A stretch of 45,516 nucleotides of DNA from Planctomycetaceae bacterium (lineage in GTDB: Bacteria; Planctomycetota; Planctomycetia; Planctomycetales; Planctomycetaceae): positions 1 to 45,516 of the forward strand of contig CANJQC010000034.1 in the NCBI GenBank assembly GCA_947476295.1, in the 5' to 3' direction. Every line of letters begins with the position of its first letter. Within the stretch, counting starts at the first letter, position 1. This document shows positions 8,609-27,661 of the stretch, one piece after another. The notes under the pieces are model-generated. The model had not been told where the DNA came from and made no database searches. It was given only the letters and a program-made list of their open reading frames with translations. Made by a program: the position numbers and the translations under genes.

Positions 8609-9682
8609 TTAGTCGAAAGCAAGTTTCTGCCGAAAGCGTCGGCAGAGTTCCATTGGCCGGTCGAATTGCTTTTGCAGCAGAGACTGACGGAACCAGCGTT
8701 TGGTTTCGTACCATCCCTTTCTGAGGCGGCCGGACACCAGTCGCAGATCCACGGCGCCTTCCCCAATGGCAATGTCTCCCGTTTTGAAACTGCCTTTATA
8801 GCGTTCTTTTCCTTTACCAAAATCGACACGCTGTATGCCTCGGCGGGCTCCTTCTTCGAGAAGTCGGAGGAGGAGAATCAAGCCCGGTGAGTACTTTTCA
8901 AAGGCTGGATTGTAGGTTGGAAACCAAAGATGAATCACACTTTCAGTCTGAAGTCCGAGATGCACGGCCAGCAGTTGATCACCTGCGTGCAATGTTGAAA
9001 ACAGTCCTGGCGAATCTGCATCCGTGGTGGTCATGTTTCGCATCAGTTCGACGAGCCATTCGTACTTCAAAACTCGTAAACGTCCTGTGCGATCGTGCTG
9101 AGCGTCCTTCCATTTGATCAGGGATTCGAGCGCGATTCGGCAGTTCGAATGGTACTCGAACCGCAGCGGGCCGATTTCCTTTTCTGCTTTGCGTGTTTTA
9201 CGAAGTGTTTCACTGACAGTCGATGCATTCGCCGCTTTTCTGCCAGCCAGATAATTTTCGTAGCCATTACTCAAATCGACAAATGGTGACGTGCTGGTGC
9301 CCCAGACATGGTGCGGAATAGGTGAGCCGACCATCGGCAGATGATCGAATTGCCACCACGTGAGTCCCGCAGCCCGCATGACTTTCGCTGTGTCAAAATC
9401 ATAATCACGTCGAACGATCGGACCGTGAAATTCCGACAATCGGCTGGACACGTTTCGAGCCAGTCCATTGGACGCACGTTGAAAGGGAAACAAGCCTGTG
9501 AGCTCTCCCGCGCTTTCGACGAGCGCGATTTCCACGTCATCACGCACCTGAGCGACAGTCTGTGTGAATTCCGGCTGAAAGAATGGGCTTTGCAGATAGC
9601 GATCGTCGCTCGCAATGGCTTTCCACTGGCTGACAAGATCCGGAGTCAGGTCTTTCGCGGCAATGATGCGGACATTGGTCAT
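8609..9682 (-). CDS. FemAB-like / GNAT acetyltransferase (BioF2-like), EPS locus
   Basis: 357 residues. The C-terminal half carries the PF13480-type acyltransferase signature 'RVDFGKGKERYKGSFKTGD', and the centre has 'HLGLQTESVIHLWFPTYNPA', both typical of FemAB/CelD-like GNAT proteins. Related proteins transfer amino acids from aminoacyl-tRNA (FemABX) or acyl groups from acyl-CoA; many EPS and PEP-CTERM loci carry one. Its ATG overlaps the stop of the upstream paralogue by 4 nt (9679-9682), so the two are probably translationally coupled and perhaps act together. It is the last gene of the leftward EPS operon. The donor and acceptor cannot be told from sequence. Confidence 0.88.
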   Translation of the reverse strand: MTNVRIIAAKDLTPDLVSQWKAIASDDRYLQSPFFQPEFTQTVAQVRDDVEIALVESAGELTGLFPFQRASNGLARNVSSRLSEFHGPIVRRDYDFDTAKVMRAAGLTWWQFDHLPMVGSPIPHHVWGTSTSPFVDLSNGYENYLAGRKAANASTVSETLRKTRKAEKEIGPLRFEYHSNCRIALESLIKWKDAQHDRTGRLRVLKYEWLVELMRNMTTTDADSPGLFSTLHAGDQLLAVHLGLQTESVIHLWFPTYNPAFEKYSPGLILLLRLLEEGARRGIQRVDFGKGKERYKGSFKTGDIAIGEGAVDLRLVSGRLRKGWYETKRWFRQSLLQKQFDRPMELCRRFRQKLAFD

Positions 9683-10881
9683 GATTGCTGAGACTCCGAT
9701 AACAGTGGAGGATTTGATGAATCCGCTCGTTGTAAAGACTGATCCGCGTGGGGCCGGTTCGATGGCTCAACTGCGGTACGAGGCGGATTTTGTCGGCTCG
9801 AAACACGGGAAACAGTAGTCGTTGCTATCTCGCGCAACTGTCTGTGCAGCACCTTCAGTCCCGGACCAACGAGGGTTTCTCTGAGAGCCACTCGTGTGCG
9901 ATACCAATTCGTCCGCAGCCAGCGGCGAACCACGTTGGTGTCCATGATCACCCGGCAGACTTCGTCAGCGCTGTTCGCGAAAGTAATCTTGTAATCTTCG
10001 TCGCCGACCCCAAAGTCAAAACGTGTTAGCCCGCGATGCGAAGCTTCGATTAACAAGCGTCGCAACAGAATTTTTCCTGGTGAGTACACCCCGAAGAATG
10101 GGTTGTAAGCCGGAAACCACCAGTGGCAGACCTGCCCGCTGATCAAACCATAATGAGCAGCCACAAGATCGTTGCCCGCGTACATCGCAGACAATACGGG
10201 TTGAAACTCACTGCTGGCGGGAACTTCAATCAGGTGATGCAGCAACTCGACAGGCCAGCCGGGTGCCAGCGTGTCAAGTTCTCTCGTGCGCAGATATTGA
10301 TCTCGTTTCCAGTCAATCAACTGCGTCAGTACTTTGCAGCAGGCTGTATGGAATTCAAAGCGAATCGGTCCGTATTCCCGGATCAGTTTGCGTTCCTTTC
10401 TCGCGAGTTGTTTCAGCTGGCAGGTGCCGGTTTGTTGCAGGCCGTTCTCCCAGGCCGCGTAGCCCATTGACAGATCGACATAGGGTGAACCTTTTGTGCG
10501 GATGACGTGCCGTTGAAAGTCCTGTCGCCAGTCAAACATTTTGGCACAAAAGAATCGTTGAATGCCTGCGGATCTCAAGATATCATCGGTACAGAAGTTC
10601 TCATGCGGGCCACTGATGATCCCCTGAAAGTCATTCAGGGATTCTCCTAACGCTGCTGGCTCGCCCGTGTCTGCCAGCTGAAACGGCAAAAACGCGACAG
10701 GTCGGCCGTTATCATTCGCCGCAATCACTTTCGCAGAGGCATTCACGTGAGCAACGGCCTGAGTAAACTCAGGCTGAAAGAAGGGACTACGAAGTGCCGG
10801 GTTGCTGCGCACCATCTCCCGCCACGCCAGAATTTCTTCGGCGGTCAACTGGTCAGGTGTGATGGTACGGGTCGAAAGCAT
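9679..10881 (-). CDS. FemAB-like / GNAT acetyltransferase (BioF2-like), paralogue
   Basis: 400 residues from ATG 10881. It has the same architecture as its downstream neighbour: an N-terminal 'NPALRSPFFQPEFTQAVAHV', a central 'HYGLISGQVCHWWFPAYNPF' and the signature 'RFDFGVGDEDYKITFANSAD'. The last 45 residues are a hydrophilic, Ser/Pro-rich tail that the neighbour lacks. The two genes look like a tandem duplication that has diverged. Likely role: modification of an EPS precursor or polymer with an acyl or aminoacyl group (inference from family and context). The start codon directly abuts the TAA of a short open frame (10882-11058). Confidence 0.87.
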   Translation of the reverse strand: MLSTRTITPDQLTAEEILAWREMVRSNPALRSPFFQPEFTQAVAHVNASAKVIAANDNGRPVAFLPFQLADTGEPAALGESLNDFQGIISGPHENFCTDDILRSAGIQRFFCAKMFDWRQDFQRHVIRTKGSPYVDLSMGYAAWENGLQQTGTCQLKQLARKERKLIREYGPIRFEFHTACCKVLTQLIDWKRDQYLRTRELDTLAPGWPVELLHHLIEVPASSEFQPVLSAMYAGNDLVAAHYGLISGQVCHWWFPAYNPFFGVYSPGKILLRRLLIEASHRGLTRFDFGVGDEDYKITFANSADEVCRVIMDTNVVRRWLRTNWYRTRVALRETLVGPGLKVLHRQLREIATTTVSRVSSRQNPPRTAVEPSNRPHADQSLQRADSSNPPLLSESQQS

Positions 10882-11058
10882 TTAGGTTGCAGAAGAAGTT
10901 TGTTTAAATTTCAAAGTGCCCATACTGTCGTCTTTGTCCAATTCAATTCCGAAAAAGACGCTCGCGCTGCTGCCCAGGTGAGTTGCAGAACGTCCTGCGT
11001 GCAAGTTGAAGCTGGCGAGTTTTTCTTTAGTCAGTATCTCAGTATCAATGACATCGTT
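10882..11058 (-). other. Gap in EPS operon with an unexplained open frame
   Basis: This 176-nt gap interrupts an operon whose other junctions are overlaps or gaps of less than 20 nt. One minus-strand frame is open through the whole gap, overlaps the end of the flippase gene and stops with TAA (10882-10884) immediately before the ATG of the FemAB-like gene. It reads '...LTKEKLASFNLHAG...' and '...FFGIELDKDDSMGTLKF...'; the last part recalls the end of an acyl carrier protein, but there is no DSL motif and no good start codon. It may be a decayed gene or chance. Confidence 0.25.
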
Positions 11059-12629
11059 CAGACGCCTTCCGTTTTTACAAACAGACGGATGGGTCTGTAT
11101 TTCATCAGTTCCGGAAACATACTTCCGATATCCAGCGCTGGCAGGCCACCGACCAGCACAACCGCAGTTCCAGCGATCGTCGCTGCGAATCGAACGATAA
11201 GCGTGTCCTCAGTAATGCTCGGCATCAGCGATGCGATGATCGTCACCTGCATCATGACAAAGAAGAGTCGCAGGCAGGTCCAGTCAACTTCCTTCAGCAG
11301 CTTCATTCTAAAGATGGTGATCTGATTACCAATGGGACGCATCAGCAAGATGATGACAGTGGTGACCGCTCCGCCTGCAACTCCCCAACGAGGAACCAAC
11401 CACAGGTTGAGACCAATGCCTGCAATGACGGTGATGATATCCGTCAGGAAAATTCGACCGACGTGTCCATGGGCTTTCAGAATTTCGTAGTTGAATCCAA
11501 CGATTGCATTCAGATAAAAGCCCAAAGCCAGCAGCGCCAGAATGATGGAGGAATCCGCGTATTGCGGTCCGAACAGAGTGACAGTGATGAATTTTGAAAG
11601 GCAGACGCAGGGCAGAAACAACGGAAAAGTTCCGACTGCGATCCACGCTGAGGTCCGCCAGAAGACCTGATCAATGGAAGCCGTTTCACCTCGAGCATAC
11701 ATGCGCGAAATGGCCGGGCCAAACAGCAATCGAAAGCTGTCGGCCACAAACGTGTTGAGTCGAGCGACCGGCAGAACGGCCTGGAATCCGGCAACACTAA
11801 TCGCTCCATGACAGAATTCCAGCACCAGCGTCACCAGCGAACCACGGACAATGACCAGCAGGTCTGTGGACAACAACGGGAAACTGAAGCCAAACACCTG
11901 TCGGGCGGGAACGTCGATTTTGTCACGCCGAAAATATTGCAGCAGATTCGCATTCTTCAAGATCTTCCACAGCACTACAAAGGAATACCATGTTCCGATT
12001 GTGCCGCAAACGACGAACGATATTGCCAGCATTCGCACATCCGTATGAGCGAAGATCAGCGGAACAACGGCAAGCACCTTCAGCAGCGGAGCGATCAGAT
12101 GCCGTCGGACAAACAGTTCTTTAGGCTTTGCAAACGTGGCGTACAATTCGTCAAAGATTGAATCGACGGCTTTCAGTGGAACCAACAGAATCAGGATCAG
12201 CATTAGTGACATCGACAGCGGATCGCGGACCAGATTCGCACTGATGTATCCCTGAGCTCCGAGAACCAGCAGCACCACACCGATGCCAATGCCCGTGACG
12301 CAGCACAGCGTCAACGCGACCGTCCCTGCCATCTTTCCGAATTCATGTTTCTCCTGAAATACCGGCGCAAAGCGGTTCAGTGTGCGTCCCAGCCCGAAGA
12401 CCGCGACGCTGGCTCCCATCGATGCGATCGACAGGCCGTATGCGAACGCTCCGTAATCGGCCTTCATCAGATAGCGAACGGTGATGACCTGCACGATGAA
12501 GTTCAGCACCATCGCGATCACACGACCGACCGTCAGCAGCGACGATCCGCGGATCAGCTTCTTTGTCTGCGACGAAGACCTGCCGTGGCCGCCTAGATTC
12601 GTCCCGCTTTGTTGTTCGATTGCCATCAT
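11058..12629 (-). CDS. Oligosaccharide flippase (Wzx-type, MVF/MOP superfamily)
   Basis: 523 residues with 12-14 hydrophobic segments spread over the whole length. The N-terminus ('KKLIRGSSLLTVGRVIAMVL' then 'VRYLMKADYGAFAYGLSI') is typical of polysaccharide flippases: a short cytoplasmic lead, first helix, then the 'R.L....YG.F' motif. Wzx proteins move lipid-linked repeat units across the inner membrane for polymerisation. The ATG pair at 12629/12626 overlaps the stop of the ligase/polymerase gene (12626-12629, ATGA), indicating translational coupling. It is in the expected place between the polymerase and the modifying enzymes. Confidence 0.92.
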   Translation of the reverse strand: MMAIEQQSGTNLGGHGRSSSQTKKLIRGSSLLTVGRVIAMVLNFIVQVITVRYLMKADYGAFAYGLSIASMGASVAVFGLGRTLNRFAPVFQEKHEFGKMAGTVALTLCCVTGIGIGVVLLVLGAQGYISANLVRDPLSMSLMLILILLVPLKAVDSIFDELYATFAKPKELFVRRHLIAPLLKVLAVVPLIFAHTDVRMLAISFVVCGTIGTWYSFVVLWKILKNANLLQYFRRDKIDVPARQVFGFSFPLLSTDLLVIVRGSLVTLVLEFCHGAISVAGFQAVLPVARLNTFVADSFRLLFGPAISRMYARGETASIDQVFWRTSAWIAVGTFPLFLPCVCLSKFITVTLFGPQYADSSIILALLALGFYLNAIVGFNYEILKAHGHVGRIFLTDIITVIAGIGLNLWLVPRWGVAGGAVTTVIILLMRPIGNQITIFRMKLLKEVDWTCLRLFFVMMQVTIIASLMPSITEDTLIVRFAATIAGTAVVLVGGLPALDIGSMFPELMKYRPIRLFVKTEGV

Positions 12630-14125
12630 GCAATGGCCGCCTGCGCATCAGGAGTCGTCCGTTTGTTCGACATGCGAGCCACGCACGTGGCGGCGTCTGT
12701 CATGGCCAGCATCAGCCAGAAGTACCGCACGTAAGACATGTGCAAAAAGATTCCCATCACGAGATATCCCGTCATTGCCAGCAGAAACGCCGACACGGTT
12801 TGTTCAAGTTCCCGTTCGGAATCCATGATCTGAGACCGAGTCCGCAGCAACGACAGAATCGTCGCCGCAAGCATGCTTAGGAACAGCATCATGCCGGGGA
12901 GTCCGGTCTCCGCAGGGATTTCCAGGAACATGCAGTGAGTTTGCCGCGAACCCTCCAGAGCTCGCAGTCCACCGATCTGTCCATATTCACGGGTGTATTC
13001 GCCGGACATATCCGGACCAACACCGAACACCGGATGATCGATTGCCATTCGTGCGGCAGCCAGCATTTCCGTAACCCGTCCTCGAATAGCTCCGTCCGGT
13101 TCTTCCTGAGTGGATGAGGCTCCGAAGATACCGAGAGCCGTTGGGACCGTCGCCAGTCGTGTTCTGTATTGAGGCACTGCGAGCAGCAAGACCAGTCCAC
13201 CAATTCCCAGCAGTCCAACCTGTTTCGGTGAGACGAACTTCAATGCGAGCCCGACCATTGACATCAGCACGAAGGCAATGGCACCGCTTCTTGAAAACGT
13301 CAGCGCACAGCCCATGGCGATCAACATTGCCGAAACCATGGCAACAGAACGCAGGCCGACGTTGCGTTCGATCCAGAATCGCGACAACGCCAGGGGAATC
13401 AGCATCAGCATCACCTGAGCATAACGGTTCTCTTCACCGATTGGACCGGTCAGACGTCGCTGATGCACGGTTCCGCGTCCTTCCGCGACCTGAAATCCTG
13501 CGCCATCGGACAGTTGTCCAAAGCCACCAAGGTCAGAATCAAACGATCTTGTCGTCTGTTGGTAGACGGAAATACCTCCCATGAAAGTGCCAGCCGCGAT
13601 CAGAGCCCAAACACTTGTCCTGAGGATCCTGGATGAACGCACGACGTTCGTGATTAGAACATACATCAGCAGCCCTTCGAACACCGTGCTCATCACCCCT
13701 TCAATGGCCTGGTCGGGTGCTCTGGAGAACATGGCTGATAGCAGTTGCCAGCCGACAAACGCAAGAATCCACGGCAAAGCGGGCCCCAAAACAATCCGCT
13801 GTCGCAGCAGAACAATGTTGTAGAGCAAAGGAATGATCAGCGGCGCGGGAGCGAGCATCGCGGCGATTGACGGCACACCATGGAAGTGGACCGCCACAAC
13901 CATGGCATTCGAGTAGATCAGGAACAGCACCACCGGGATGGTGGCATCGGGTCGAGCCAGTACAGACACCGCAGCGGGAACCGCAAGGACCGCCGCAAGT
14001 GCGACCAGCGGCTGTCCTTCCATCACGGCACCCACGGCAATCAACCCGGCGCATAGGAACGCTAACGCGATCGCCATGAGGCGACCGTCGATGCGAACAG
14101 CCGAACTGTCCAGTGGTATTGACAT
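12626..14125 (-). CDS. O-antigen ligase / Wzy-type polymerase family protein
   Basis: 499 residues from ATG 14125, with about ten or more membrane segments and one large external loop near residues 340-420. That loop contains 'RQTHCMFLEIPAETGLPGMM', which matches the H-N/x-x-x-L-x-x-x-x-E-x-G-x-x-G pattern of the Wzy_C/WaaL family. In a locus with a flippase and a co-polymerase the more likely role is polymerising repeat units in the periplasm, rather than ligating to lipid A; this is inferred. It starts 3 nt after the end of the GT2 gene. Confidence 0.88.
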   Translation of the reverse strand: MSIPLDSSAVRIDGRLMAIALAFLCAGLIAVGAVMEGQPLVALAAVLAVPAAVSVLARPDATIPVVLFLIYSNAMVVAVHFHGVPSIAAMLAPAPLIIPLLYNIVLLRQRIVLGPALPWILAFVGWQLLSAMFSRAPDQAIEGVMSTVFEGLLMYVLITNVVRSSRILRTSVWALIAAGTFMGGISVYQQTTRSFDSDLGGFGQLSDGAGFQVAEGRGTVHQRRLTGPIGEENRYAQVMLMLIPLALSRFWIERNVGLRSVAMVSAMLIAMGCALTFSRSGAIAFVLMSMVGLALKFVSPKQVGLLGIGGLVLLLAVPQYRTRLATVPTALGIFGASSTQEEPDGAIRGRVTEMLAAARMAIDHPVFGVGPDMSGEYTREYGQIGGLRALEGSRQTHCMFLEIPAETGLPGMMLFLSMLAATILSLLRTRSQIMDSERELEQTVSAFLLAMTGYLVMGIFLHMSYVRYFWLMLAMTDAATCVARMSNKRTTPDAQAAIA

Positions 14126-14128
14126 GAA

Positions 14129-15319
14129 TCAGTTTTCGGTAGCGACTGTCAGGGACTTTGTATCGAATTCCGCTCGCTGTGGTTCCCACAAGACGACTCG
14201 TTTTCCGCACAGCGATTTGTACGTCGCAATCAGGCACGCAAAGTTGACCATGCAGAAAAAGAAAGGCAGTGACAGCGGCTTCTTGCGGCCGAGTTTCGTT
14301 CCATTCAAAAGCCCGCCGAACAACGCTGCGACATAAAAGGACACCTGCCCGGCCGCCGCCAGCAGATAGAAGAGCGAGGTTTGAGCAAGCAATACACTGG
14401 TGCCAAGTAACATCAACAGCGGAAACACCATCTGGCGACGCAGGACTTTGTGTGAAAACAACTGTACAGAATAGAAGCCGTAACGCAGCGGATTCAGCAG
14501 AGTCCGCATCTGCAGGACACCGCGAAGACCGCGAGTGATGATGCGAACCTTGCGACCGAATTCCACACCGCTGCTGACAGCGACCGGTTCGTACGAAGCG
14601 GCATTGACTTCGAAAACCAACCGATAGCCTTTGGCGATGACTGCCGTTGATGTCGCAAAGTCGTCGGTCACGCCTTCGGGTACTGTGGTAAAGAGCGAAC
14701 GGCGAATCGCGTAGATCGCTCCGGTCGCTGATGTGACGCTTCCGGCGAAGCTCTGCCAGTGTTTCATGCGGCGGTCGAAGTTCCAATAGCTGCGTTCACC
14801 GGCGTCTGCCGTAGATTGGCTATCGCCTTTGGAATACCGCTGGTCTCCGGCCACTCCGCCAACCGTCGGATCTGCAAATGGTCTTACGAGGGCCGTGAGC
14901 GCATCTTTGCCGAACATGCTGTTGGCGTCTGAGAAGACCAAGATCTCACCAGTGCAATGTTCAACACTCGCATTCAACGCCGCGGCTTTACCAGCGCGGG
15001 GAAGGTTTAGCACCGTGAGTCGCGGTTCGTCGAAAGTCTTCAGAATCTCGATTGTCCGGTCACTTGAACCGTCCGACGCGACAACAATCTGCACCAGTTC
15101 GCCCGGGTAGTCGAGTGCCAGCATGTTGCGAACTTTATCGCCAATGCTGTCTTCTTCATTGTGGGCGGCAATCAACACACTGACTGTTGGCGTAACGTCG
15201 CTGCGGGTGTGCGGGCGGCGACACATCCAGCTTCGCAGCCACGACAGCAACGGGAAACCGATGTAGGTGTAGAGTATGACACCGACGGCGCTCCAGAACA
15301 GAATTTCGTTCACATTCAT
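14129..15319 (-). CDS. Glycosyltransferase family 2, membrane-bound
   Basis: 396 residues. One N-terminal membrane segment (residues 6-26) is followed by a GT-A catalytic domain: 'VSVLIAAHNEEDSIGDKV' at about 47-64, 'VVASDGSSDRTIEIL' at about 80-93, the metal-binding DxD-like 'VFSDANSM' near 131, and 'VTDDFATS' as the likely acceptor/base region. Three or so C-terminal membrane segments follow. It resembles processive or monofunctional GT2 enzymes that add sugars to undecaprenyl-linked intermediates. Its ATG overlaps the stop of the GT4 gene (15316-15319). Confidence 0.92.
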   Translation of the reverse strand: MNVNEILFWSAVGVILYTYIGFPLLSWLRSWMCRRPHTRSDVTPTVSVLIAAHNEEDSIGDKVRNMLALDYPGELVQIVVASDGSSDRTIEILKTFDEPRLTVLNLPRAGKAAALNASVEHCTGEILVFSDANSMFGKDALTALVRPFADPTVGGVAGDQRYSKGDSQSTADAGERSYWNFDRRMKHWQSFAGSVTSATGAIYAIRRSLFTTVPEGVTDDFATSTAVIAKGYRLVFEVNAASYEPVAVSSGVEFGRKVRIITRGLRGVLQMRTLLNPLRYGFYSVQLFSHKVLRRQMVFPLLMLLGTSVLLAQTSLFYLLAAAGQVSFYVAALFGGLLNGTKLGRKKPLSLPFFFCMVNFACLIATYKSLCGKRVVLWEPQRAEFDTKSLTVATEN

Positions 15320-19561: not shown

Positions 19562-20431
19562 ATGAAAACTCATCGCATCTGGACAATTACCACACTTTGC
19601 TGGTTCTTTGCGCTGTTCAATGTCGAACGGATTTTCCCGCAGGTTGACATTGCTTCATTCGTCTACGGGCTGTCTACGCTGATTGGCGTGTCGATGTTGG
19701 CATCTCCTTTCCTGCGACGGCAGAGATTTGGACTCGTGGCTGCCGGCTTCGCAGTGATCTGGATCGTCGGAAAGTGCGTACTTGGCTATGCCGTTGATCT
19801 TTCCGCTCTTCCAATTGCGTTAACAGAAGTATGCGCGATGATTACTTCGCAATACCTGTGCCTGAAAGTGGCTCAGAATACAGATGAGTTTGTCCTGACC
19901 TCGACGCAAATGCTGGAAATCCTGAAGGCCACGTCCGTCCCGTTTATTCAAGTATCGGAGTTCGCACTTCTCGACGAAATTCGCCGCGCTCGAAGGCACG
20001 AACGCCCGCTGACTTTCGCGTGTCTCACACCCGGAAAAGTCACTTCAGATGCTCTGGCCGGACTGGTGAAAGAGCTGACCGACTCACTGAGCAAAGAATA
20101 CATTGTCGGAGGAATCAGCCGCATCCTGCGAATGGAGACCAAGTCGCATGACCTGGCCGTTCGTGTAGGGGATCAAATTCTGATGCTGCTGCCGGAAACC
20201 GATGCCGGTCAGGGCAAAGCGATGTGCAGACGTATTCAATCCACCGTGGCAGAGAAACTTCAGATTCCAATGACCACAGAAGTCTTCGCATTTGGTACGG
20301 ACGAACTGACGTTGTCGGGAGTGCTGGATCGAATGCGAAAACTGGAGAACCGGGCCTTCGATTCGGAAGTCTTTGAACTGCAACCGAGTAAACACGATGT
20401 GCCAAAAACAGCCACCGCAAATGCGTTCTGA
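19562..20431 (+). CDS. Membrane protein with degenerate GGDEF-like domain
   Basis: 289 residues. The N-terminal half has three or four hydrophobic segments (about 8-24, 33-48, 57-75, 82-100). A short linker leads into a domain that begins like a GGDEF domain ('FALLDEIRRARRHERPLTFA', 134-153) and ends like one ('DQILMLLPETDAGQGKAMCR'). Where the GG[D/E]EF loop should be, the sequence is RVGDQI (201-206), and the usual GTP and metal ligands are not seen, so it is probably not an active diguanylate cyclase. It may act as a scaffold or GTP sensor. It lies between the sugar transferase and the deacetylase, 5 nt before the latter, so it is almost certainly part of the EPS operon. Confidence 0.7.
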   Translation: MKTHRIWTITTLCWFFALFNVERIFPQVDIASFVYGLSTLIGVSMLASPFLRRQRFGLVAAGFAVIWIVGKCVLGYAVDLSALPIALTEVCAMITSQYLCLKVAQNTDEFVLTSTQMLEILKATSVPFIQVSEFALLDEIRRARRHERPLTFACLTPGKVTSDALAGLVKELTDSLSKEYIVGGISRILRMETKSHDLAVRVGDQILMLLPETDAGQGKAMCRRIQSTVAEKLQIPMTTEVFAFGTDELTLSGVLDRMRKLENRAFDSEVFELQPSKHDVPKTATANAF

Positions 20432-20436
20432 ATACT

Positions 20437-21465
20437 TTGAGACACGGATTTCTGCTGATGATCGCGTCAATTCTAAAAAAAATGGCTGTACAGATCTCGG
20501 ACACGCGTGCGTTCGAGATGGCTGTCGATCACGCTGAGCGTCGCAACCGGAATCGCCCCTTGTTGCGAGTGCTGGCATATCATCGCATCGACGAAACCTG
20601 CGCTGACGATCCTTATTACCCAAGCCTGATTAGTACCACTCCGTCACAATTTGCAGCTCAGATTCAATGCGTCGCAGAACGGTATCATGTTTGTTCGATG
20701 CAGGATGTCGTGGCAGCCGCGAAGAAAAAATCGACGCTGCCTGCAGAATCCGTCCTGCTGACTTTTGATGATGCCACGCGAGATTTCGCGATCCATGCGT
20801 GGCCTGTCCTGAAATCATTTGGATTGCCAGCCACTGTGTTTGTGCCCACCGCTTATCCGGACAATCACAACCTTCACTTTTGGTGGGACAGGCTTTATCG
20901 AGCCGTGCTGTGTTCACCTCAGGACACCCAAATCTCTACGCCAGCCCACGGCCGAATCTGTCTAACGTCTCCAACGCAGAGACGGCGGGTTTTTCGGCAG
21001 TTGAAAGAATACCTGAAGTCAATTCCTCACAGTGAATTTCAACACGTCATGACAGACATCACCGGGGCTGCGAATGTGGCGGACCCTGAGCACAACAATG
21101 TCCTGAGTTGGAAAGCACTTCGAGCACTTCAGGAGGACGGTGTAACCCTCGCGCCGCACACTCACAGTCACCCAATGCTGAATCGTCTGCCGCTGGATGA
21201 GATACGGCACGAAGTCCAAATGTCCTGCAAAGTATTGACTTCAGAGGTTAAAGACGTCTCGCGCACACTGGCATATCCTGCCGGTGGAGTTTCTGACGAT
21301 GCCGTGCTCGCAATGGCCAGTGAAAGGATTGATCTGGCCTTCAGCACCAAGCGAGGACTGAATGATCAGCATTTTTCCAATCCATTTCGGCTGCAGCGAA
21401 TCAACATCGGTGCCCGAACGACGCGTGGCCTGCTGAGAATGCAGTTGGCAAACTGGGGGCGATAA
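20437..21465 (+). CDS. Polysaccharide deacetylase (NodB-homology, CE4)
   Basis: 342 residues from TTG 20437; ATG 20458 is an equally good start. NodB motifs are visible: 'LAYHRID' near residue 46, motif 1 'LLTFDDATRDF' (107-117) with both Asp residues, 'GLPATVFVPT', motif 2 'LAPHTHSHPMLN' with the H-T/S-x-x-H zinc ligands, and motif 3 reduced to 'LAYPAGG' instead of R-P-P-Y-G. It probably removes N-acetyl groups from the EPS or its precursor. No signal peptide is evident, so cytoplasmic action on lipid-linked sugar is possible. It is part of the rightward EPS arm. Confidence 0.9.
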   Translation: MRHGFLLMIASILKKMAVQISDTRAFEMAVDHAERRNRNRPLLRVLAYHRIDETCADDPYYPSLISTTPSQFAAQIQCVAERYHVCSMQDVVAAAKKKSTLPAESVLLTFDDATRDFAIHAWPVLKSFGLPATVFVPTAYPDNHNLHFWWDRLYRAVLCSPQDTQISTPAHGRICLTSPTQRRRVFRQLKEYLKSIPHSEFQHVMTDITGAANVADPEHNNVLSWKALRALQEDGVTLAPHTHSHPMLNRLPLDEIRHEVQMSCKVLTSEVKDVSRTLAYPAGGVSDDAVLAMASERIDLAFSTKRGLNDQHFSNPFRLQRINIGARTTRGLLRMQLANWGR

Positions 21466-21534
21466 TCCGATTCTGCTCATTTTGACGATTATTCCGGCCG
21501 ATCTGTAAGCAAGACAATCCTTAACCGCGCAGGT

Positions 21535-23124
21535 GTGGCCAGACCGCTCATGGACCGTTCGTCGGTAAAACAGAATCCCAAGACATTCGCTCTCATTCGT
21601 CGCTCGCTTTTGGCGATGAGTGCGATGTTGTGCATATTCTGCATGGGCTGTTATGCACCAATGCATTCTCCAGGCATTGCGGCACGAACACTGCCCGATG
21701 AATTTCGCTGGCCCATTCGAACGTCTGCGGCTCCGCTGAATTACTCACAGCTGGTTGGACAGGCCCCAAGTATTTACTTGCTGGGAACCGGTGACAAGCT
21801 CCTGATCACCGCGCCCGATCTCATCGCCCAGGGGCAATCTGAACCGTTCGAGGTGCAGGTGCTGGACCATGGCGAAATCTATCTGCCGCGACTCGGGCCA
21901 GTTGTCGTCGGTGGAATGTCGATCGCCCAGGCTCAACAACAAATCAATCAGGCGCTGGCAAGCGGGCTGCTGACCAACCCTAATACCGTGATGACGTTGA
22001 AGGAAAAGGGAACCGTCAATGTCCTCGTTCTGGGAGCTGTCAAACAGCCTGGTGTACACGCCTTGCCGCGAGATGAAAACGATGTCGCTCACGCACTGGC
22101 CGCCGCACAGGGATTTTCGGAGGACGCTGGCGATGTGATTGAAATTCATCGTCGCAGCATGGCTCTTCCTTCACAGGTACTGAATGCCGCGACACAGCCG
22201 GGTCCGCAGCTTCAAGGGCTGGCGAATGCACCGGCAACTGCTTCCGGTAGAACTGGACCTCCTCTGTATCAGGCGTCTGCCGGTCATCAGCTTTCTGCGC
22301 CTCAAACAAACTTCCAGCCGCCGCAACAGACGTCGCTGGCACCTTCGACTTTTTCACCAGCTCTTCAAAACGGCGGCGGAATGCAGCCTGGCGGAGTGCC
22401 CGCGACATCGGAATCAGTTGGGGGGAACCAGCAAGACCCCACATTTCAGCTGACCGGCTATCGAAACTCCGCCTCCCGTTACTCGCTGCCAACGACACCG
22501 ATCTCGCCCCTTCAATCCAGTTTGCCACCTGGGCAGGGCCACAGCGGATACGCGGATAGCACGATGATTGGCGGACATTCTCTGGGATCTTTCGACGGCA
22601 GTGGTGAGTTTAACGGAGGCATTTGCCAGCCCCCGCCAATTCTCAGAATTCCGCTGCGAGGCGAGAACGGGATGACGAATCCGCGCGATGTGATTCTAAA
22701 CCCCGGCGATGTGCTTGTGATTCCACAAGAAACGGCCAAAGTGTTTTATGTCGTTGGGCCACTCAGCCAACGGAACAGCATTCGCTTCTCGACGAATAAC
22801 AAAGACCGCGAAATTGGCGGCGGCCTGCTGCTTCCCGATGATCGCGAAATTGATGTCGTCACGGCCGTTGCGATGGCCGGTTACATCGATCCTATCGAAT
22901 CACCAACGACGGTCACGGTGCATCGGCTCCTGCCGGACCGCAGCCCACTGCTGATCCGCGTTGATTTGCTTGCCGCTCGATGCGACCCGCAGGAAACGGT
23001 GATGGTGCAATCGGGTGACATCATCTATCTGAATCCGGATCTTTGGTGGTATAGCCGCAGAACATGGGACCGCATTATCGACCGAGCACTCGGCACGGCT
23101 ATTGGCCGCTGGTTGACGAATTGA
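21535..23124 (+). CDS. Wza-like polysaccharide export lipoprotein (OPX, SLBB)
   Basis: 529 residues from GTG 21535; ATG 21550 is an alternative. A lipoprotein-like signal ends at Cys39 ('LCIFCMGC'). The polysaccharide export domain begins at about residue 80 ('YLLGTGDKLLITAPDL') and contains 'GEIYLPRLGPVVVGGMSIAQ'; a first SLBB segment follows ('VNVLVLGAVKQPGVHALP'). Residues of about 215-375 are a Gln/Pro/Ser/Gly-rich low-complexity insert, after which a second SLBB segment resumes ('VFYVVGPLSQRNSIRF'). The C-terminus ends with 'GDIIYLNPDLWWYSRRTWDR'. OPX proteins form the outer-membrane exit pore for EPS; the long insert is unusual. It is the last gene of the rightward arm. Confidence 0.92.
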   Translation: MARPLMDRSSVKQNPKTFALIRRSLLAMSAMLCIFCMGCYAPMHSPGIAARTLPDEFRWPIRTSAAPLNYSQLVGQAPSIYLLGTGDKLLITAPDLIAQGQSEPFEVQVLDHGEIYLPRLGPVVVGGMSIAQAQQQINQALASGLLTNPNTVMTLKEKGTVNVLVLGAVKQPGVHALPRDENDVAHALAAAQGFSEDAGDVIEIHRRSMALPSQVLNAATQPGPQLQGLANAPATASGRTGPPLYQASAGHQLSAPQTNFQPPQQTSLAPSTFSPALQNGGGMQPGGVPATSESVGGNQQDPTFQLTGYRNSASRYSLPTTPISPLQSSLPPGQGHSGYADSTMIGGHSLGSFDGSGEFNGGICQPPPILRIPLRGENGMTNPRDVILNPGDVLVIPQETAKVFYVVGPLSQRNSIRFSTNNKDREIGGGLLLPDDREIDVVTAVAMAGYIDPIESPTTVTVHRLLPDRSPLLIRVDLLAARCDPQETVMVQSGDIIYLNPDLWWYSRRTWDRIIDRALGTAIGRWLTN

Positions 23125-23476
23125 CGCGTGTCTTATATTCCGCGTGATTCTGACGGAGATGTTTTGCTGTAGCCGGATTCTGACAAATCCAGCTACATGG
23201 CATTTGTGGCCGCGCGGGGTATAAATCGCCCCGAAGCATCGCGTCCCCATTCCTGCCCAGCGGCTTGCAAAGCTGCGACTCGCAGTCGCTTTGGCCCGTC
23301 TGCGTTCCTGCCATTCGCGGCGGCATGTTGCACAAATGCCACGCTGTGTTTCTGCAAAACCAGCAAAATGAGGCGACCATCGACCGCTGATGGGGTAGGG
23401 TCACTTAACGTTCACTGAAATCTTCACAGGTTGTCGGTGCAGCGTCCCCGTATTCAGCACGAGAAAGGTCTCTCCG
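23125..23476. other. Gene-free stretch with short hairpins
   Basis: 352 bp without a supported gene. It holds an inverted repeat at 23168-23197 (12-bp arms, one mismatch, 6-nt loop) and a 5-bp GC hairpin at 23215-23233. Neither has a T-run. They may be dispersed intergenic palindromes and may also protect the 3' end of the EPS mRNA. The region separates the EPS locus from the dehydrogenase/ATP-grasp cluster and probably holds the promoter of the latter. Confidence 0.5.
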
Positions 23477-24409
23477 TTGAAGCCAGCAGCGACAACAACT
23501 CATCAGACAGTTATCGGGATTCTTTCTCCCGGTGAGATGGGATCTGCGCTGGCAGAAGTGTTGCGGGATCGAGGATTTGAAGTCATCACAACTTTGACGG
23601 GGCGGAGTCCACGAAGCACGGAATACTGTGAGCGATCTGGTGTTGCTGCTCGGAAGTGCCTCGCTGACGTTGTCAGCCAGGCCGATGTGATCATCTCGAC
23701 AGTGACTCCCGACGCCGCAGTCGCTGTTGCCAGCCAGGTCAGACGAGAAGCCGCACGTCTCGACGCTTCATTAATTTACGTGGATGCGAACTCGGTATCG
23801 CCTCAAACCATCGGGCGGATCGCCGACGAATTCCAGGACAGCAATATCCAGTTTGTCGATGCAGCGATTCATGGGCTCGCTTCTCGGCTGAAGACTCAGG
23901 GTACCATTTTTGCCAGTGGCTCCGCCGCTGGCGTCGTCAGCGAGCTCTTCGGTACCGACGTTCGAGTCAGAATTCTGGGGGGCGAGCCCGGAAATGCATC
24001 ACTCATGAAAATGACGCTGGGTGGCATGTCGAAAGGAATCATCGGGCTGTTTTTGCAAAGCAGTCTACTGGCACAACACGTCGGGATGGCGGACGAATTC
24101 TGCGACGAGTTGGGCCATTACTACCCTGACGTTTTGAATTTTGTCGAACGATCGCTGCCAACGTTTGGACAGCATGCCGCACGACGTGCTGCGGAAATGC
24201 GTGAACTTGAAGCATCACTGAGCGTTGCCGGGCTGCCAACTGGGATGGCGGTGGAATTGTCCAGACTGTTTTCTGCTCTGAATGAAAGCGACATGGCAGC
24301 AGTTTGTGGACGTGGAGTTCAACCGATGTCGCTGAAAAAACTGATTGAACTCTTGTCTGAATCGCGATTGTCAGTCATTACAGATCGTTTAGCAGCGACA
24401 GTGGTTTGA
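23477..24409 (+). CDS. NAD(P)-dependent dehydrogenase, DUF1932 C-terminal domain
   Basis: 310 residues from TTG 23477, preceded by a GAAAGG ribosome-binding site. The N-terminal Rossmann fold has the dinucleotide motif 'VIGILSPGEMGSALAEVL', as in 6-phosphogluconate and 3-hydroxyisobutyrate dehydrogenases, with 'VIISTVTPDAAVAVA' and 'LIYVDANSVSPQTIGRIADE' following. The C-terminal half ('GGEPGNASLMKMTLGGMSKG') carries the conserved Lys of the family and matches DUF1932. These enzymes oxidise beta-hydroxyacids; the substrate here is unknown. It lies 6 nt before the RraA-family gene, so the pair probably acts in one pathway. Confidence 0.88.
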   Translation: MKPAATTTHQTVIGILSPGEMGSALAEVLRDRGFEVITTLTGRSPRSTEYCERSGVAARKCLADVVSQADVIISTVTPDAAVAVASQVRREAARLDASLIYVDANSVSPQTIGRIADEFQDSNIQFVDAAIHGLASRLKTQGTIFASGSAAGVVSELFGTDVRVRILGGEPGNASLMKMTLGGMSKGIIGLFLQSSLLAQHVGMADEFCDELGHYYPDVLNFVERSLPTFGQHAARRAAEMRELEASLSVAGLPTGMAVELSRLFSALNESDMAAVCGRGVQPMSLKKLIELLSESRLSVITDRLAATVV

Positions 24410-24415
24410 CCTAAA

Positions 24416-25198
24416 ATGAAAGTAAGTTCGATGGCGAAGAAACTTAGATCTGCAGAGTTAAATCCCGGTCCGGGATTCCGAATTCGACTGGACTTCGAAC
24501 GGCTCAGCGTCTCACTGATGCAGGAGTTATCACAGTTTGCAGTGCCGGACATCTCTGACTTATTGAACCGGCTTTATGCCGTTGACCCGGAAATTCGGTG
24601 CCTTTCCGGAAGATATCGTCTCTGTGGTCCCGCCTGCACTGTTAAGGTTTTTCCGGGTGATAACCTGATGGTGCACAAGGCACTGGATATCGCGAAGCCG
24701 GGTGACATCATTGTTGTTGATGGCAGTGGCTCACGAACAAACGCGCTGATTGGCGACATCATCTGTACAAAAGCCCGTCATCGCGGCATTCAGGGCTTTG
24801 TAATCGATGGACTGATCCGCGACCTGCCGGCAATTGAAGAACTTGGCTACCCGGTGTTTGCACGTGGTACGACGGCCATCGGCCCTTTGCATCGTGGACC
24901 TGGCGAAATCAACTTTCCAATTGCCTGCGGAGGTACTGTCGTCAATCCTGGCGACGTGATCATCGCTGACGACGCTGGAATGGTTGCCGTTCCCCGCGAC
25001 ATCGTGAGCACAATCGCCGACATACTCACCAGCCAGAAAGACACAAACCGGGCCTATCTATCTGCTGTGCGCCGGGGAGAATTTTCAAATGAATGGGTCG
25101 ACAATCTGCTCGCTCAGCATGACTGCCTGATTGTCGATGCCGCTCCGGAAGAGCTGTCAGCGACAATCCCGTCAGATGATGTCCTCGTCGCAGGATAA
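24416..25198 (+). CDS. RraA family protein (HMG/oxaloacetate aldolase-like)
   Basis: 260 residues from ATG 24416 (ATG 24431 also possible). The RraA fold is clear: 'VPDISDLLNRLYAVD', 'GPACTVKVFPGDNLMVHKAL', 'KPGDIIVVDGSG', 'ALIGDIICTKARHRGIQGFV', and the active-site stretch 'IDGLIRDLPAIEELGYPVFA' with the Arg-Asp pair that binds substrate and metal. 'NPGDVIIADDAGMVAVP' closes the core. Members are either class II aldolases acting on 4-hydroxy-4-methyl-2-oxoglutarate or oxaloacetate, or RNase E inhibitors; pairing with a beta-hydroxyacid dehydrogenase favours an aldolase/decarboxylase role. The family was formerly mislabelled as a menaquinone methyltransferase. Confidence 0.9.
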   Translation: MKVSSMAKKLRSAELNPGPGFRIRLDFERLSVSLMQELSQFAVPDISDLLNRLYAVDPEIRCLSGRYRLCGPACTVKVFPGDNLMVHKALDIAKPGDIIVVDGSGSRTNALIGDIICTKARHRGIQGFVIDGLIRDLPAIEELGYPVFARGTTAIGPLHRGPGEINFPIACGGTVVNPGDVIIADDAGMVAVPRDIVSTIADILTSQKDTNRAYLSAVRRGEFSNEWVDNLLAQHDCLIVDAAPEELSATIPSDDVLVAG

Positions 25199-25281
25199 TC
25201 GGCCAGTGACAGAATCTCCACGCCGTCGTGAGACAACGCGATGGACTTCGTTTCTTTAGTTCCCCTGTTTCGAACGGTCAA

Positions 25282-26406
25282 ATGACTCGTCTTCTGACAA
25301 TTCAGGCACTCGCCCACCGAGCTGTTTCCCTTTGGGGGAAGACCGGTCGACAGTCTGCTGCAGCGAAGCGTCAACAGGCGGACTTCTACAAGGTCGCGTG
25401 GCGCGAGGCAGCGGACAGTCTGGAAGCGGATCTTGAAACTCTTGATCAGGACGTGCTTGCTATTCGAAAAGGCGGCAAGTCAACACGTGTTTTTTTGAAT
25501 TACACGGAGCTGGATGACCCGGTGTCGCTGCGAATCGCCGGCAACAAACCACTCGTTCACAGGTTGCTGCGATCACAGGGGATTCCAACCCCGGCTTATC
25601 GTGAATTCACACTTAAGACTCTTACGGACGCAGGTGAGTTCCTGCAGCAGCACGGCACTTGTGTGGTCAAACCCGCCGCCGGCACCGGTGGCGGAAACGG
25701 AGTCACAACCGGTGTTCAAACGGTTCGGCAACTCCGACAGGCGTCTGTCGTCGCGGCCGGTCATAGTTCCAGCCTGATCATTGAACAGCAGATTGCTGGT
25801 GCGAACATCCGACTCTTATTTCTTGATGGCCAGCTGCTGGATGCCATTGACCGTCGCCCGCCGACCGTCACGGGAGACGGTCGCAGCAGGATCGGCCAGC
25901 TCGTTGAAAACGTGAATCAACAGCGTCTGCAGGCGGGGTTTTCAGTCGCACAGTCAGTCTTAAAGCGGGACCAGGACATGCGCCAGACGCTCGCGGCGCA
26001 GGGTCTCACGTTGACGTCCGTTCTACCGGTCAACAAGACCGTGCAGTTAAAGACTGTCATCAACGACAATACGGCAGACGACAACATTTGCGTCATCGAT
26101 TCGTTGAACACAGCGCTGATTGACGAGGCGCGTTCTGCAGCGGATGCCGTCGGCCTGCGGCTGGCGGGTGTGGATATTGTCACGCCGGACGCCTCACGCT
26201 GTCTCACTGACGCTGGCGGTGTCGTACTGGAAGTGAACTCGGCACCGGGCTTCTATTTTCACTACGCCGCGCGCAATGGCCGCACTCCGGTTGCCATTCC
26301 CGTGCTTGCTGCATGCCTGAACTGCCCAATCGATTCGGGTGTATGGAAAGTACGTGAAATTGCATCGGTGTCGCGTGACCTTTGCGAAGTGACCTCAACG
26401 CTCTAA
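25282..26406 (+). CDS. ATP-grasp ligase, cyanophycin-synthetase-like
   Basis: About 374 residues from ATG 25282; an in-frame GTG at 25228 would add 18 residues without family support. The ATP-grasp fold shows 'GNKPLVHRLLRSQGIPTPAY', the glycine-rich nucleotide loop 'VVKPAAGTGGGNGVTTGV', 'IIEQQIAGANIRLLFLDGQL', 'PPTVTGDGRSRIGQLVENVN' and the metal-binding end 'GGVVLEVNSAPGFYFHYAA'. These are the features of the ATP-grasp domain of cyanophycin synthetase and GshAB-type enzymes, but the Mur-ligase domain of CphA is missing. It should form an amide bond between a carboxylate and an amine; substrates are unknown. It is followed 31 nt later by a second ATP-grasp gene. Confidence 0.88.
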   Translation: MTRLLTIQALAHRAVSLWGKTGRQSAAAKRQQADFYKVAWREAADSLEADLETLDQDVLAIRKGGKSTRVFLNYTELDDPVSLRIAGNKPLVHRLLRSQGIPTPAYREFTLKTLTDAGEFLQQHGTCVVKPAAGTGGGNGVTTGVQTVRQLRQASVVAAGHSSSLIIEQQIAGANIRLLFLDGQLLDAIDRRPPTVTGDGRSRIGQLVENVNQQRLQAGFSVAQSVLKRDQDMRQTLAAQGLTLTSVLPVNKTVQLKTVINDNTADDNICVIDSLNTALIDEARSAADAVGLRLAGVDIVTPDASRCLTDAGGVVLEVNSAPGFYFHYAARNGRTPVAIPVLAACLNCPIDSGVWKVREIASVSRDLCEVTSTL

Positions 26407-26437
26407 ACAGGCCCGAAAAGACGACGGAACACAATTA

Positions 26438-27661
26438 ATGCCTCCAGCGACGACCTTCATCGAACCAACGCAATCACGGGAACGCGCAGCGACTGTCGCA
26501 CGACCGGCGCTGCCACCCGTCATTATCATCGGTGGAAACGACAATGCCTTGTCACTTGCACGTGGCTTTGGTCGCCGGGGAATCGACGTCTACGTTGTCA
26601 ATCAGCCGAACGCCGATGTCGCGAAGAGTCGGTTCGTGAAAGTCATTGAGCTCCCCGATCACCCTTCGTTCGAAGAGGCTGCAGCAGACTGGCTGTGCGG
26701 AACGAATTCAGATCACCTGCAACAAAGTGTGCTGCTGGCAGCCAGTGATGAGGGACTGTCAATCCTCGCGAAATACCATGAATTGCTCTCTCAGCGATTT
26801 CTTCTGGATCTTTGCAATCCCGTCGCACAGCTGCAGATGCTGGACAAGCTGGACACCTATCTTCTGGCCCGCAAGGCAGGAGTGCCGACGCCCAAATTCT
26901 GGCAGGTGAGCACACAGGATGATCTGGCAAAACTTCGTGATGAACTCGTCTATCCGATTATTGTGAAGCCCGTCCTGTCTCACGTCTTTCAGCAGAAATT
27001 CCGCACGAAGTTTATCGTTGCCGACAATTTTGAGCAGCTGGCTGATGCATTCGGCGTCGCGGCTGATGCGAACATTGACGTACTGTTGGTTGAAAAAATT
27101 CCCGGACCGGACACGCAACTCTGCAGCTACTACACGTGGCTGGATGAATACGGAAACACGGCTTTCGATTTTACGAAACGGATCATTCGGCGGTATCCAG
27201 TCAACATGGGGCTCGCAACGTACCACGTCACGGATCATGTTGAGGGTGTCAAAGAGCACGCCGTCAAACTGTTTCGCCATGTCGAGCTGCAGGGACTGGC
27301 AAATGCGGAATTCAAATACGACGCTCGCGATGGTGTGCTGAAACTGATCGAATGCAATGCCCGGTTCACGGCCGCCAACGGCCTGGTGGCTCGTGCCGGA
27401 ATTGACCTCGGTGCATTGGTCTACAATCGTCTGACCGGACTTCCGTTGCCGCCGTTGGACGACTTTCGCGACGGATTGACATTGTGGGATCCGATGCGGG
27501 ATTTTAAAGCGTTTCTTGAGCTACGGCGAAGTGGAGAGCTCACCCTTCTCGACTGGCTTCGCAGCGTGTCTCGGTGGCACTGCTTTCCGGGTTTTGACCT
27601 GATGGATCCACGTCCCGGGCTGGTACGACTCATGCGGCGTCTGTGTAAGCCCGGCAAGTAA
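26438..27661 (+). CDS. ATP-grasp carboxylate-amine ligase (D-Asp ligase/PylC-like)
   Basis: 407 residues. The N-terminal pre-ATP-grasp domain starts with 'PPVIIIGGNDNALSLARGFG', then 'VLLAASDEGLSILAKYHELL'. The ATP-grasp domain contains 'DKLDTYLLARKAGVPTPKFW', 'YPIIVKPVLSHVFQQKF', 'VEKIPGPDTQLCSYYTWLDE' and 'KLIECNARFTAANGLVARAG' with the metal-binding Glu-x-Asn-x-Arg. This is the layout of stand-alone ligases such as D-aspartate ligase and PylC-like enzymes. It is not closely similar to the preceding ATP-grasp protein, so the two likely catalyse successive ligations. A frameshifted membrane-protein gene follows. Confidence 0.88.
   Translation: MPPATTFIEPTQSRERAATVARPALPPVIIIGGNDNALSLARGFGRRGIDVYVVNQPNADVAKSRFVKVIELPDHPSFEEAAADWLCGTNSDHLQQSVLLAASDEGLSILAKYHELLSQRFLLDLCNPVAQLQMLDKLDTYLLARKAGVPTPKFWQVSTQDDLAKLRDELVYPIIVKPVLSHVFQQKFRTKFIVADNFEQLADAFGVAADANIDVLLVEKIPGPDTQLCSYYTWLDEYGNTAFDFTKRIIRRYPVNMGLATYHVTDHVEGVKEHAVKLFRHVELQGLANAEFKYDARDGVLKLIECNARFTAANGLVARAGIDLGALVYNRLTGLPLPPLDDFRDGLTLWDPMRDFKAFLELRRSGELTLLDWLRSVSRWHCFPGFDLMDPRPGLVRLMRRLCKPGK

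Follow-up and report, generated by a model that had tools for sequence, protein, structure and literature searches.

A conserved RraA/ATP-grasp gene cassette linked to Wzx/Wzy exopolysaccharide loci in Planctomycetota and other bacteria: a candidate polymer-modification module

The window analysed here, a 45,516-nucleotide stretch of contig CANJQC010000034.1 from a Planctomycetaceae bacterium (assembly GCA_947476295.1, here G000; 5.99 Mb in 252 contigs), carries a complete Wzx/Wzy exopolysaccharide (EPS) locus at 8609-23124, as recognized by Pfam and NCBIfam matches, followed at 23477-27661 by a compact cassette of four genes, dh, rraA, ag1 and ag2, separated by spacers of 6, 29 and 31 bases. 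These encode a dehydrogenase, an RraA/HMG-aldolase-like protein and two dissimilar ATP-grasp proteins. With moderate confidence, we propose that the cassette is a plug-in module of the EPS locus, which would make a substituent, an acid or amino acid, and join it through an amide to a cytosolic repeat-unit precursor, and that two FemAB-like proteins encoded in the same locus perform a second, independent modification. This proposal draws on the families to which the proteins belong, on binding positions and a linkage that are conserved, on the fusion of operons in relatives, and on the separability of the FemAB genes from the cassette.

Cassettes were read at 18 loci in 17 genomes, each having at least two of rraA, ag1 and ag2 within a few kilobases, and 16 having all three. 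EPS-type genes are present in the stretch read at 15 of the 18, two of these by a lone flippase gene, and the linkage holds for 9/9 loci in Planctomycetota, 3/4 in Acidobacteria and 3/5 in Gammaproteobacteria. A first-pass annotation of the window had tentatively linked the ATP-grasp cluster to the EPS locus, a view that agrees with these counts: rather than occurring mostly without such a locus, the cassette accompanies it, and in several relatives is joined to a wzy, kinase or deacetylase gene. Among the Planctomycetota, G077 carries wzz-gt4-gt2-wzy-wzx-kinase-femB-dh-rraA-ag1-ag2-HTTM on one strand, with a divergent set formed by the phosphoglycosyltransferase gene pgt, hp19, the deacetylase gene deac and opx, the gene for the outer-membrane polysaccharide export (OPX) protein; G516 has wzz-wzx-gt4-gt2-wzy-NHL-cytochrome c-kinase-dh-rraA-ag1-ag2-HTTM, with divergent pgt-hp19-deac; and G037 has gt4-gt2-wzy-NHL-cytochrome c-wzx/kinase-deac-dh-rraA-ag1-ag2-HTTM. 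The order in G345, G456 and G505 is wzz-wzy-dh-rraA-ag1-ag2-HTTM-deac; femAB, pgt, gt2 and opx are close by, and so are wzx and gt4 in G345 and G505, the two genomes in which that side was read, while G400 has kinase-dh-rraA-ag1-ag2-wzx with gt2, gt4, deac and OPX genes. The kinase gene found within the operon of G077, G037, G516 and G400 is of APH type. In G081, whose contigs are broken, pgt, hp19, deac and opx lie with the cassette, and wzy is on another contig. In the Acidobacteria, G663 and G552 share the order pgt-rraA-ag1-[extra gene]-ag2-dh, with an OPX gene in the cluster and with WbqC and PIG-L proteins in G663, and G589 has rraA-ag1-ag2-dh together with glycosyltransferases, a deacetylase and two PF13480 genes. 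The gammaproteobacterium G818 encodes a flippase, Wzy_C, UDP-GlcNAc 2-epimerase and GT4 on the strand opposite to the cassette.

The junctions between cassette and EPS operon are close in a number of these relatives. In G400, dh begins 11 bases before the end of the kinase gene; in G037, an ATG start of dh would overlap the deacetylase gene by 4 bases, an alternative GTG lying 26 bases past its end; after wzy, dh starts at 2 or 50 bases in G505 and at 83 in G345, and G456 offers several possible starts, which range from 98 bases upstream of the end of wzy to 76 downstream of it. In G077, dh comes after femB on the same strand as wzz-gt4-gt2-wzy-wzx. The window itself has a gap of 352 bases between the OPX gene and the cassette (23125-23476), suspected at first reading of separating two independent units. 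A scan of this gap found no plus-strand promoter-like or terminator-like site and one minus-strand terminator-like site, a result not above that of shuffled sequences. The suspicion holds insofar as the window by itself shows no evident coupling, and is countered by the close junctions in G400, G037, G505 and G345.

Co-occurrence among 150 genomes of the family points in the same direction. Orthologs were taken at E<1e-100 for AG1 and E<1e-140 for AG2, thresholds chosen after seeing the gap in the match lists (1e-106 versus 1e-37 for AG1, 1e-148 versus 1e-36 for AG2), and both occur in the same four genomes (G000, G081, G077 and G037; hypergeometric P 4.9e-8). All four are among the nine genomes with a Wzy relative at E<=1e-20 (Fisher P 6.2e-6, or 1.0e-4 without the near-identical G081), these P values being ones that ignore relatedness. 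Pairwise distances, taken with no species-tree control, also agree between ag1 and ag2 (r 0.94), rraA and ag2 (0.85) and rraA and ag1 (0.84). The arrangement of cassette and EPS locus is not due to chance. In wider samples, matches came from at least 6 of 392 genomes of the phylum at E<=1e-60 (the window's own, G037, G345, G456, G505 and G400), from at least 4 of 247 in a sample of Acidobacteria, the phylum of G514, and from at least 10 of 321 in a sample of Gammaproteobacteria, the class of G515, five of these at E<1e-115; these tallies are lower bounds, as few candidates were scored per genome. A pattern scan of named species genomes gave six loci, one of them in the further planctomycete G516 (L048).

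The enzyme families of the cassette suggest what such a module might make. The dh product (23477-24409, plus strand) is of the beta-hydroxyacid-dehydrogenase type with a DUF1932 domain (PF03446, 6.9e-13; PF09130, 2.4e-12), its nearest solved structure being MTH1747 (4.2e-27). The rraA product (24416-25198, plus strand) matches PF03737 at 7.7e-48 and the NF004850 model at 237 bits (cut-off 231), and aligns with the HMG/CHA aldolase 3NOJ (2.2e-34) in such a manner that D114, R135 and D136 face D102, R123 and D124 of the latter, residues that have a catalytic role in the aldolase and form the D-X20-R-D motif. Of 16 cassette RraA proteins, 15 retain this motif, which lies at D114 in the window, the exception being that of G818. 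Most homologs carry one of two such motifs (PMC5065237). By these residues the cassette protein is predicted to be an HMG/CHA-type class II pyruvate aldolase, with putative aldolase or decarboxylase activity; unlike 3NOJ, with which its D, R and D residues align, and unlike RraA, it sits with ATP-grasp genes.

AG1 (25228-26406, plus strand) matches models of cyanophycin synthetase, N-acetylglutaminylglutamine (NAGGN) synthetase and GshF, each below its cut-off (NF010623, 1.2e-48), and reaches 7wac in a profile search at 1.2e-39. The alignment spans the ATP-grasp domain, including the common R-x-P-x-x-V-x-G-x-G stretch, and K107, K148, D316, E335 and N337 are invariant in 16 sequences; with its full-domain match and ATP/Mg positions, AG1 falls into the CphA/NAGGN-synthetase/GshF ATP-grasp group. 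It is not cyanophycin synthetase itself (163.6 bits against TIGR02068, cut-off 850), and has 392 residues versus model lengths of 547-871 for the three relatives. AG2 (26438-27661, plus strand) is a second, dissimilar ATP-grasp protein that matches PRK12767-type (NF009402, 2.5e-11, under its cut-off) and Ddl-type models weakly; K137, K177, E219, E291, E305 and N307 are invariant in 17 sequences. We read the invariant positions of AG1 and AG2 as binding ATP and metal. The predicted structure of AG2 (pLDDT 74.5) is an ATP-grasp fold, whose first match is the L-amino-acid ligase 3vot (6.5e-14), with PurK and a biotin-dependent carboxylase right behind it, at 8.2e-14 and 9.7e-14. The libraries searched (Pfam, NCBIfam, and the PDB by single sequence and by profile) yielded no close relative of known function, and AG2 was rejected as a sequence relative of any known ligase, PDB matches being partial and confined to the regions that bind ATP in VanA/Ddl, carbamoyl-phosphate synthase and biotin carboxylases. 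An amide-forming chemistry, suggested for both ATP-grasp enzymes in the first-pass annotation, appears plausible from the conserved binding positions and from the relatives of AG1, which form peptide bonds.

In the proposed mechanism, RraA, as a metal-dependent pyruvate aldolase or decarboxylase, and the dehydrogenase would assemble or trim a small acid of the keto or hydroxy type, with pyruvate or oxaloacetate as the source. AG1, whose relatives attach an amino acid to a carboxyl group, would activate a carboxylate with ATP and form an amide bond, and AG2, probably a carboxylate-amine ligase, would likewise activate a carboxylate with ATP, so that the two together could make a single amide bond or a pair of them. 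Either the acid itself or its conjugate with an amino acid would be placed on the lipid- or nucleotide-linked repeat unit, at an amino sugar or a uronic acid, in the cytosol, where the deacetylase may free the accepting amine and the two FemAB-like proteins may add a separate acyl or aminoacyl group; flipping by Wzx, polymerization by Wzy and export through OPX would follow. We infer the substrates, the acceptor, the order of the steps, their cytosolic location and the destination of the product on the EPS. By simple hydropathy, as opposed to a signal-peptide program, hydrophobic segments are missing from all seven putative modifying enzymes, the products of femA, femB, the deacetylase gene, dh, rraA, ag1 and ag2, and this fits cytosolic action on precursors before export. 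The recurrence of the cassette in polysaccharide clusters of quite different bacteria suggests that it makes a non-sugar polymer decoration. A bolder form of the proposal, which we offer tentatively, is that Planctomycetota, Acidobacteria and Gammaproteobacteria share a mobile, self-contained pathway in which a pyruvate-derived hydroxy acid is made in situ and amide-linked, alone or through an amino acid, to the EPS repeat unit, and which would represent a new type of non-carbohydrate EPS decoration that brings along the genes for its own synthesis. The parts would be the RraA aldolase, the hydroxyacid dehydrogenase or Ldh_2 instead, the two ATP-grasp ligases and sometimes an oxygenase and an HTTM-like protein; an Ldh_2 (malate/lactate dehydrogenase) gene lies with the cassette in the first copy of G515, in G828 and in G818, where no dh was found.

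Several observations weigh against the proposal. In G919, which has the order rraA-ag2-ag1, no EPS gene was recognized in 8.6 kb upstream or 8.1 kb downstream, and this standalone copy speaks against strict dedication to EPS. In the acidobacterium G514 there are no EPS genes in the 10 kb downstream, the contig beginning 0.7 kb upstream of dh, and the first copy of G515 lies on a 6-kb contig without EPS genes. The linkage is thin elsewhere: the flippase gene upstream in G828, where a TauD oxygenase gene is also found, is the sole EPS-type gene nearby, and the second copy of G515 has a flippase-like gene beside ag2 that is cut by the contig end and lies below the Pfam cut-off. G818 is devoid of ag1, and its RraA is the one without D-X20-R-D. 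Gaps precede the cassette in G516 (298 bases) and G077 (259-352 bases) as in the window, where a downstream HTTM-like gene is in addition broken. Finally, amide formation by AG2 is not proven by its predicted fold, since PurK and biotin carboxylase folds score similarly to the amino-acid ligase.

The alternative that survives best, although we hold it to be rather unlikely, is that the cassette makes a free small molecule, such as a capped dipeptide or hydroxy-acid conjugate that serves as a solute, metal ligand or secreted metabolite, its proximity to EPS genes reflecting a shared surface or stress programme or genomic islands. The kin of AG1 would be in keeping with this, as the products of N-acetylglutaminylglutamine synthetase, GshF and cyanophycin synthetase are free or intracellular, and so would the G919 copy, which stands alone within 8 kb on either side. 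A metabolite could leave the cell by way of the HTTM-like membrane protein or a lone flippase, and a TauD-family oxygenase gene adjoins rraA in G828. A free molecule is harder to reconcile with EPS linkage at 15 of the 18 loci, across three phylum-level groups and in differing local orders, with the close joining of dh to kinase, deacetylase or wzy genes, and with co-occurrence of the cassette with one Wzy type.

A second alternative is the full model of the first-pass annotation, in which the FemAB-like and ATP-grasp enzymes jointly decorate the polymer with amino acids or a short peptide. FemAB genes do adjoin the cassette in G077 and share its locus in G000, G345, G456, G505 and G589, six of the 11 cassette loci readable for PF13480 genes (the nine of Planctomycetota and three of Acidobacteria, minus G081, whose assembly is without the femAB stretch). 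At the other five they are not at the locus: in G037 and G516 PF13480 genes are on other contigs only, and in G400, G663 and G552 no PF13480 match was found in the whole assembly. Conversely, the sister EPS loci of G040, G022 and G020 have wzy and a FemAB pair with no AG1 or AG2 ortholog. Since FemAB genes are missing from some cassette loci and FemAB pairs occur without the cassette, FemAB belongs to the base EPS locus and the cassette is an add-on, and the idea of a single joint machine is not supported. Co-occurrence between femB relatives and the cassette is not significant (2 of 4 versus 20 of 146 genomes, P 0.10, with G081 scored as lacking femB though its contigs break there). What favours joint action besides proximity is the predicted structure of FemB, a poor model (pLDDT 55.8) that first matches FemX and the aminoacyl-tRNA-dependent Sba18/Sbb17 with streptothrisamine, the amino-sugar compound that Orf11 glycylates according to a review (PMC12945691). 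On balance, the joint model is improbable. Even less credible is a chance encounter, in which the cassette would be an independent metabolic operon behind an exporter gene: the 352-base gap with no evident coupling in the window and the standalone G919 copy are in its favour, but the association recurs, with differing gene orders, in further families and phyla, and the chance reading is largely contradicted by the close junctions in G400, G037, G505 and G345.

The nature of the FemAB-like proteins was considered separately. The genes femA (8609-9682, PF13480 1.3e-30) and femB (9679-10881, PF13480 2.5e-33) overlap by 4 bases on the minus strand, femB being 53% identical to its G077 match and 36% to femA. 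They had been described as lying inside the EPS operon; they are in fact its 3' end, femA being the last gene. PF13480 (Acetyltransf_6) is the only family that either protein matches, and the name FemAB is a fold-level label, as PF02388 (FemAB) appears at E>=0.017 in 2/14 relatives. The weak runners-up over the 14 relatives are the arginyl-tRNA-transferase C-terminus (3/14, best 0.0079), FemAB (2/14, 0.017), FemAB_like (1/14, 0.076), Acetyltransf_1 (1/14, 0.12) and an unrelated kinase domain (1/14, 0.15), and as sequence matches all appear too weak to decide. A sequence-profile search against solved structures gave no FemX match and reached no relevant structure. The acetyl-CoA GNAT motif is [RQ]-x-x-G-x-[GA]; in a Y-S-P-G-x-x-L stretch taken for the GNAT pyrophosphate loop, the only stretch searched, there is no [GA] two residues past the conserved G in 14 of 14 proteins. 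The AlphaFold model of FemB, built from three sequences, has FemX of Weissella (1.5e-6) and the aminoacyl-tRNA-dependent synthases Sba18/Sbb17 as first Foldseek matches, with a TM of about 0.3, while acetyltransferases (VipF, 1.1e-5) and tandem GNATs follow within a factor of about 10-40 in E-value. Orf11 glycylates streptothrisamine from Gly-tRNA and has a double-GNAT architecture in common with FemX, according to the review (PMC12945691), and by our own analogy Sba18/Sbb17 and Orf11 would be relatives. Fold matches and precedent lean towards aminoacyl transfer by FemB, without showing it.

The remaining genes of the EPS locus are those expected of its class, flippase, polymerase, chain-length protein, initiating phosphoglycosyltransferase, glycosyltransferases and OPX all being present together, and the positions and families given in the first-pass annotation, including the gap after OPX, are confirmed. 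A minus-strand operon, wzz-gt4-gt2-wzy-wzx-femB-femA, runs from 18114 to 8609. It encodes a Wzz/EpsF-like chain-length protein (16699-18114; PF02706, 2.2e-6; TIGR03017, 4.5e-13, under its cut-off), an EpsE-like GT4 glycosyltransferase (15316-16680; PF00534, 3.8e-37; NF041876, 5.2e-64, under its cut-off), a GT2 glycosyltransferase (14129-15319; PF00535, 1.9e-24), the Wzy polymerase/ligase (12626-14125; PF04932, 1.2e-17), whose gene overlaps wzx by 4 bases, and the Wzx flippase (11058-12629; PF01943, 1.2e-9). No tyrosine-kinase domain was matched in the Wzz-like protein, so that BY-kinase control, if any, would be encoded elsewhere. The divergent plus-strand set, pgt-hp19-deacetylase-opx (18697-23124), comprises the phosphoglycosyltransferase, or initiating sugar transferase (18697-19386; PF02397, 4.8e-64), hp19 (19562-20431), a polysaccharide deacetylase (20437-21465; PF01522, 1.6e-18) and the OPX protein (21535-23124; PF02563, 8.5e-14). 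The hp19 product has two hydrophobic segments and no Pfam family, with a diguanylate-cyclase-like match under its cut-off (NF038266, 4.1e-4); it is also present in the EPS loci of G081, G077, G037, G516, G040 and G022, that is, with and without the cassette, and may be a regulator of the EPS locus. Behind ag2, a plus-strand gene for an HTTM-like membrane protein (27662-28134) is interrupted near its start, and its similarity to the G081 copy stops at 28134, before the gene end; in G081, which is 99.5% identical to the window over 9.1 kb, the frame is open over 499 residues (L038 8665-10164). An HTTM-like gene follows ag2 in 8/9 planctomycete loci, the broken copy of the window included, and the HTTM matches of its relatives lie below the Pfam cut-off. 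This protein is a further cassette member, broken in the window, whose genome may dispense with the HTTM step or have an altered product.

Further genes accompany some of the loci. Two cassette loci, those of G037 (L035 6142-8612) and G516 (L048 3407-5799), have genes for an NHL/glucose-sorbosone-dehydrogenase-like protein and for a cytochrome c between wzy and the kinase or wzx gene, and in G037 large nonribosomal peptide synthetase genes (condensation, AMP-binding and nitroreductase domains) lie directly behind the OPX gene (L036 6495-14101). The extra gene between ag1 and ag2 encodes 343 residues with no Pfam match in G663 and a 347-residue look-alike in G552, the Pfam scan having covered G663 only of the two. 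Proteins of about 330-347 residues with similar N-termini are encoded there in both genomes (L076 15145-16176; L080 12942-13985) and before rraA in G919 (L097 7416-8408); those of L076 and L097 gave no match in the Pfam scan, and their N-terminus is reminiscent of PhyH-type oxygenases. In cassette-free G040 and G022, a PF15632 ("ATPgrasp_Ter") gene, a distant relative of AG2, lies between hp19 and the deacetylase gene (L082 18399-19901; L085 581-1954).

Other relatives of the ATP-grasp proteins were set aside. AG2 matched 40 of the 150 family genomes at E<=0.001, four being counted as orthologs; eight at 1e-36 to 1e-17 (G124, G094, G042, G115, G117, G071, G031 and G048) were dropped as paralogs, and weaker matches were left out unread, except those of G040 and G022. 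The stretches read for seven of the eight (not G031) have no rraA, ag1 or dh match, and GT4-like genes are near in five. AG1 matches at 1e-38 to 1e-20, in open frames of 600-999 residues, a cyanophycin-synthetase-like size, were not counted. Of the ten genomes matched in the Gammaproteobacteria sample, G834, G847, G863, G971 and G1079 (1e-67 to 1e-75) were dropped as being without rraA and ag1 in the stretch read. Three of these five (G1079, G863 and G834) have the match beside OPX and phosphoglycosyltransferase or GT4 genes; G955 (ag2-ldh2 on a 5-kb contig) is outside the 18 loci. Cassette-free AG2 paralogs thus lie near GT4, OPX or phosphoglycosyltransferase genes in 5/7 (L039, L040, L043, L044 and L045) and 3/5 cases (L102, L103 and L104), and this ATP-grasp branch may serve polysaccharide loci generally.

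Among known systems, Wzx/Wzy-dependent EPS loci with PF13480 genes resemble the window in all core parts, the PF13480 pairs standing beside wzy in the cassette-free sisters too; what the window adds is the dh-rraA-ag1-ag2-HTTM cassette, seen in four of the nine family genomes with this Wzy type. The C-terminal, TupA-like domain of Campylobacter jejuni Cj1438 is an ATP-grasp amidoligase of capsule synthesis (PMC11800379), and would offer a functional analogy, since it belongs to a capsule locus and makes an amide at a sugar residue. As described there, the domain shares one protein with a glycosyltransferase to which it is fused, and its substrate is glucuronic acid, whereas AG1 and AG2 are separate proteins, match other ATP-grasp models and occur with RraA and a dehydrogenase. 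An amidoligase survey by Iyer and others (2009) is cited in PMC12419801. FemX-like aminoacyl-tRNA-dependent transferases, including Sba18/Sbb17, came up first in the fold search with a low-confidence FemB model, with no sequence-profile match to any relevant solved structure. A literature search returned no paper on RraA with ATP-grasp proteins, on ATP-grasp, FemAB and EPS together, on FemAB with Wzx/Wzy, on PF13480 with EPS, on Planctomycetota EPS clusters or on spore-coat glycine. ATP-grasp amidoligases are already known in capsule synthesis, and the window is apparently an EPS locus with an undescribed modification cassette.

The chemistry of surface polymers outside model organisms is largely unknown, and a conserved cassette provides a sequence handle on a substituent that plain sugar analysis would miss. 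If the proposal is true, it would point to substrates for two ATP-grasp proteins and for an RraA subfamily (PRK06201) whose only name at NCBI is "hypothetical protein". As EPS loci that are otherwise alike, such as those of G077 and G040, can differ in having the cassette, its effect on the polymer could be tested by comparing relatives.

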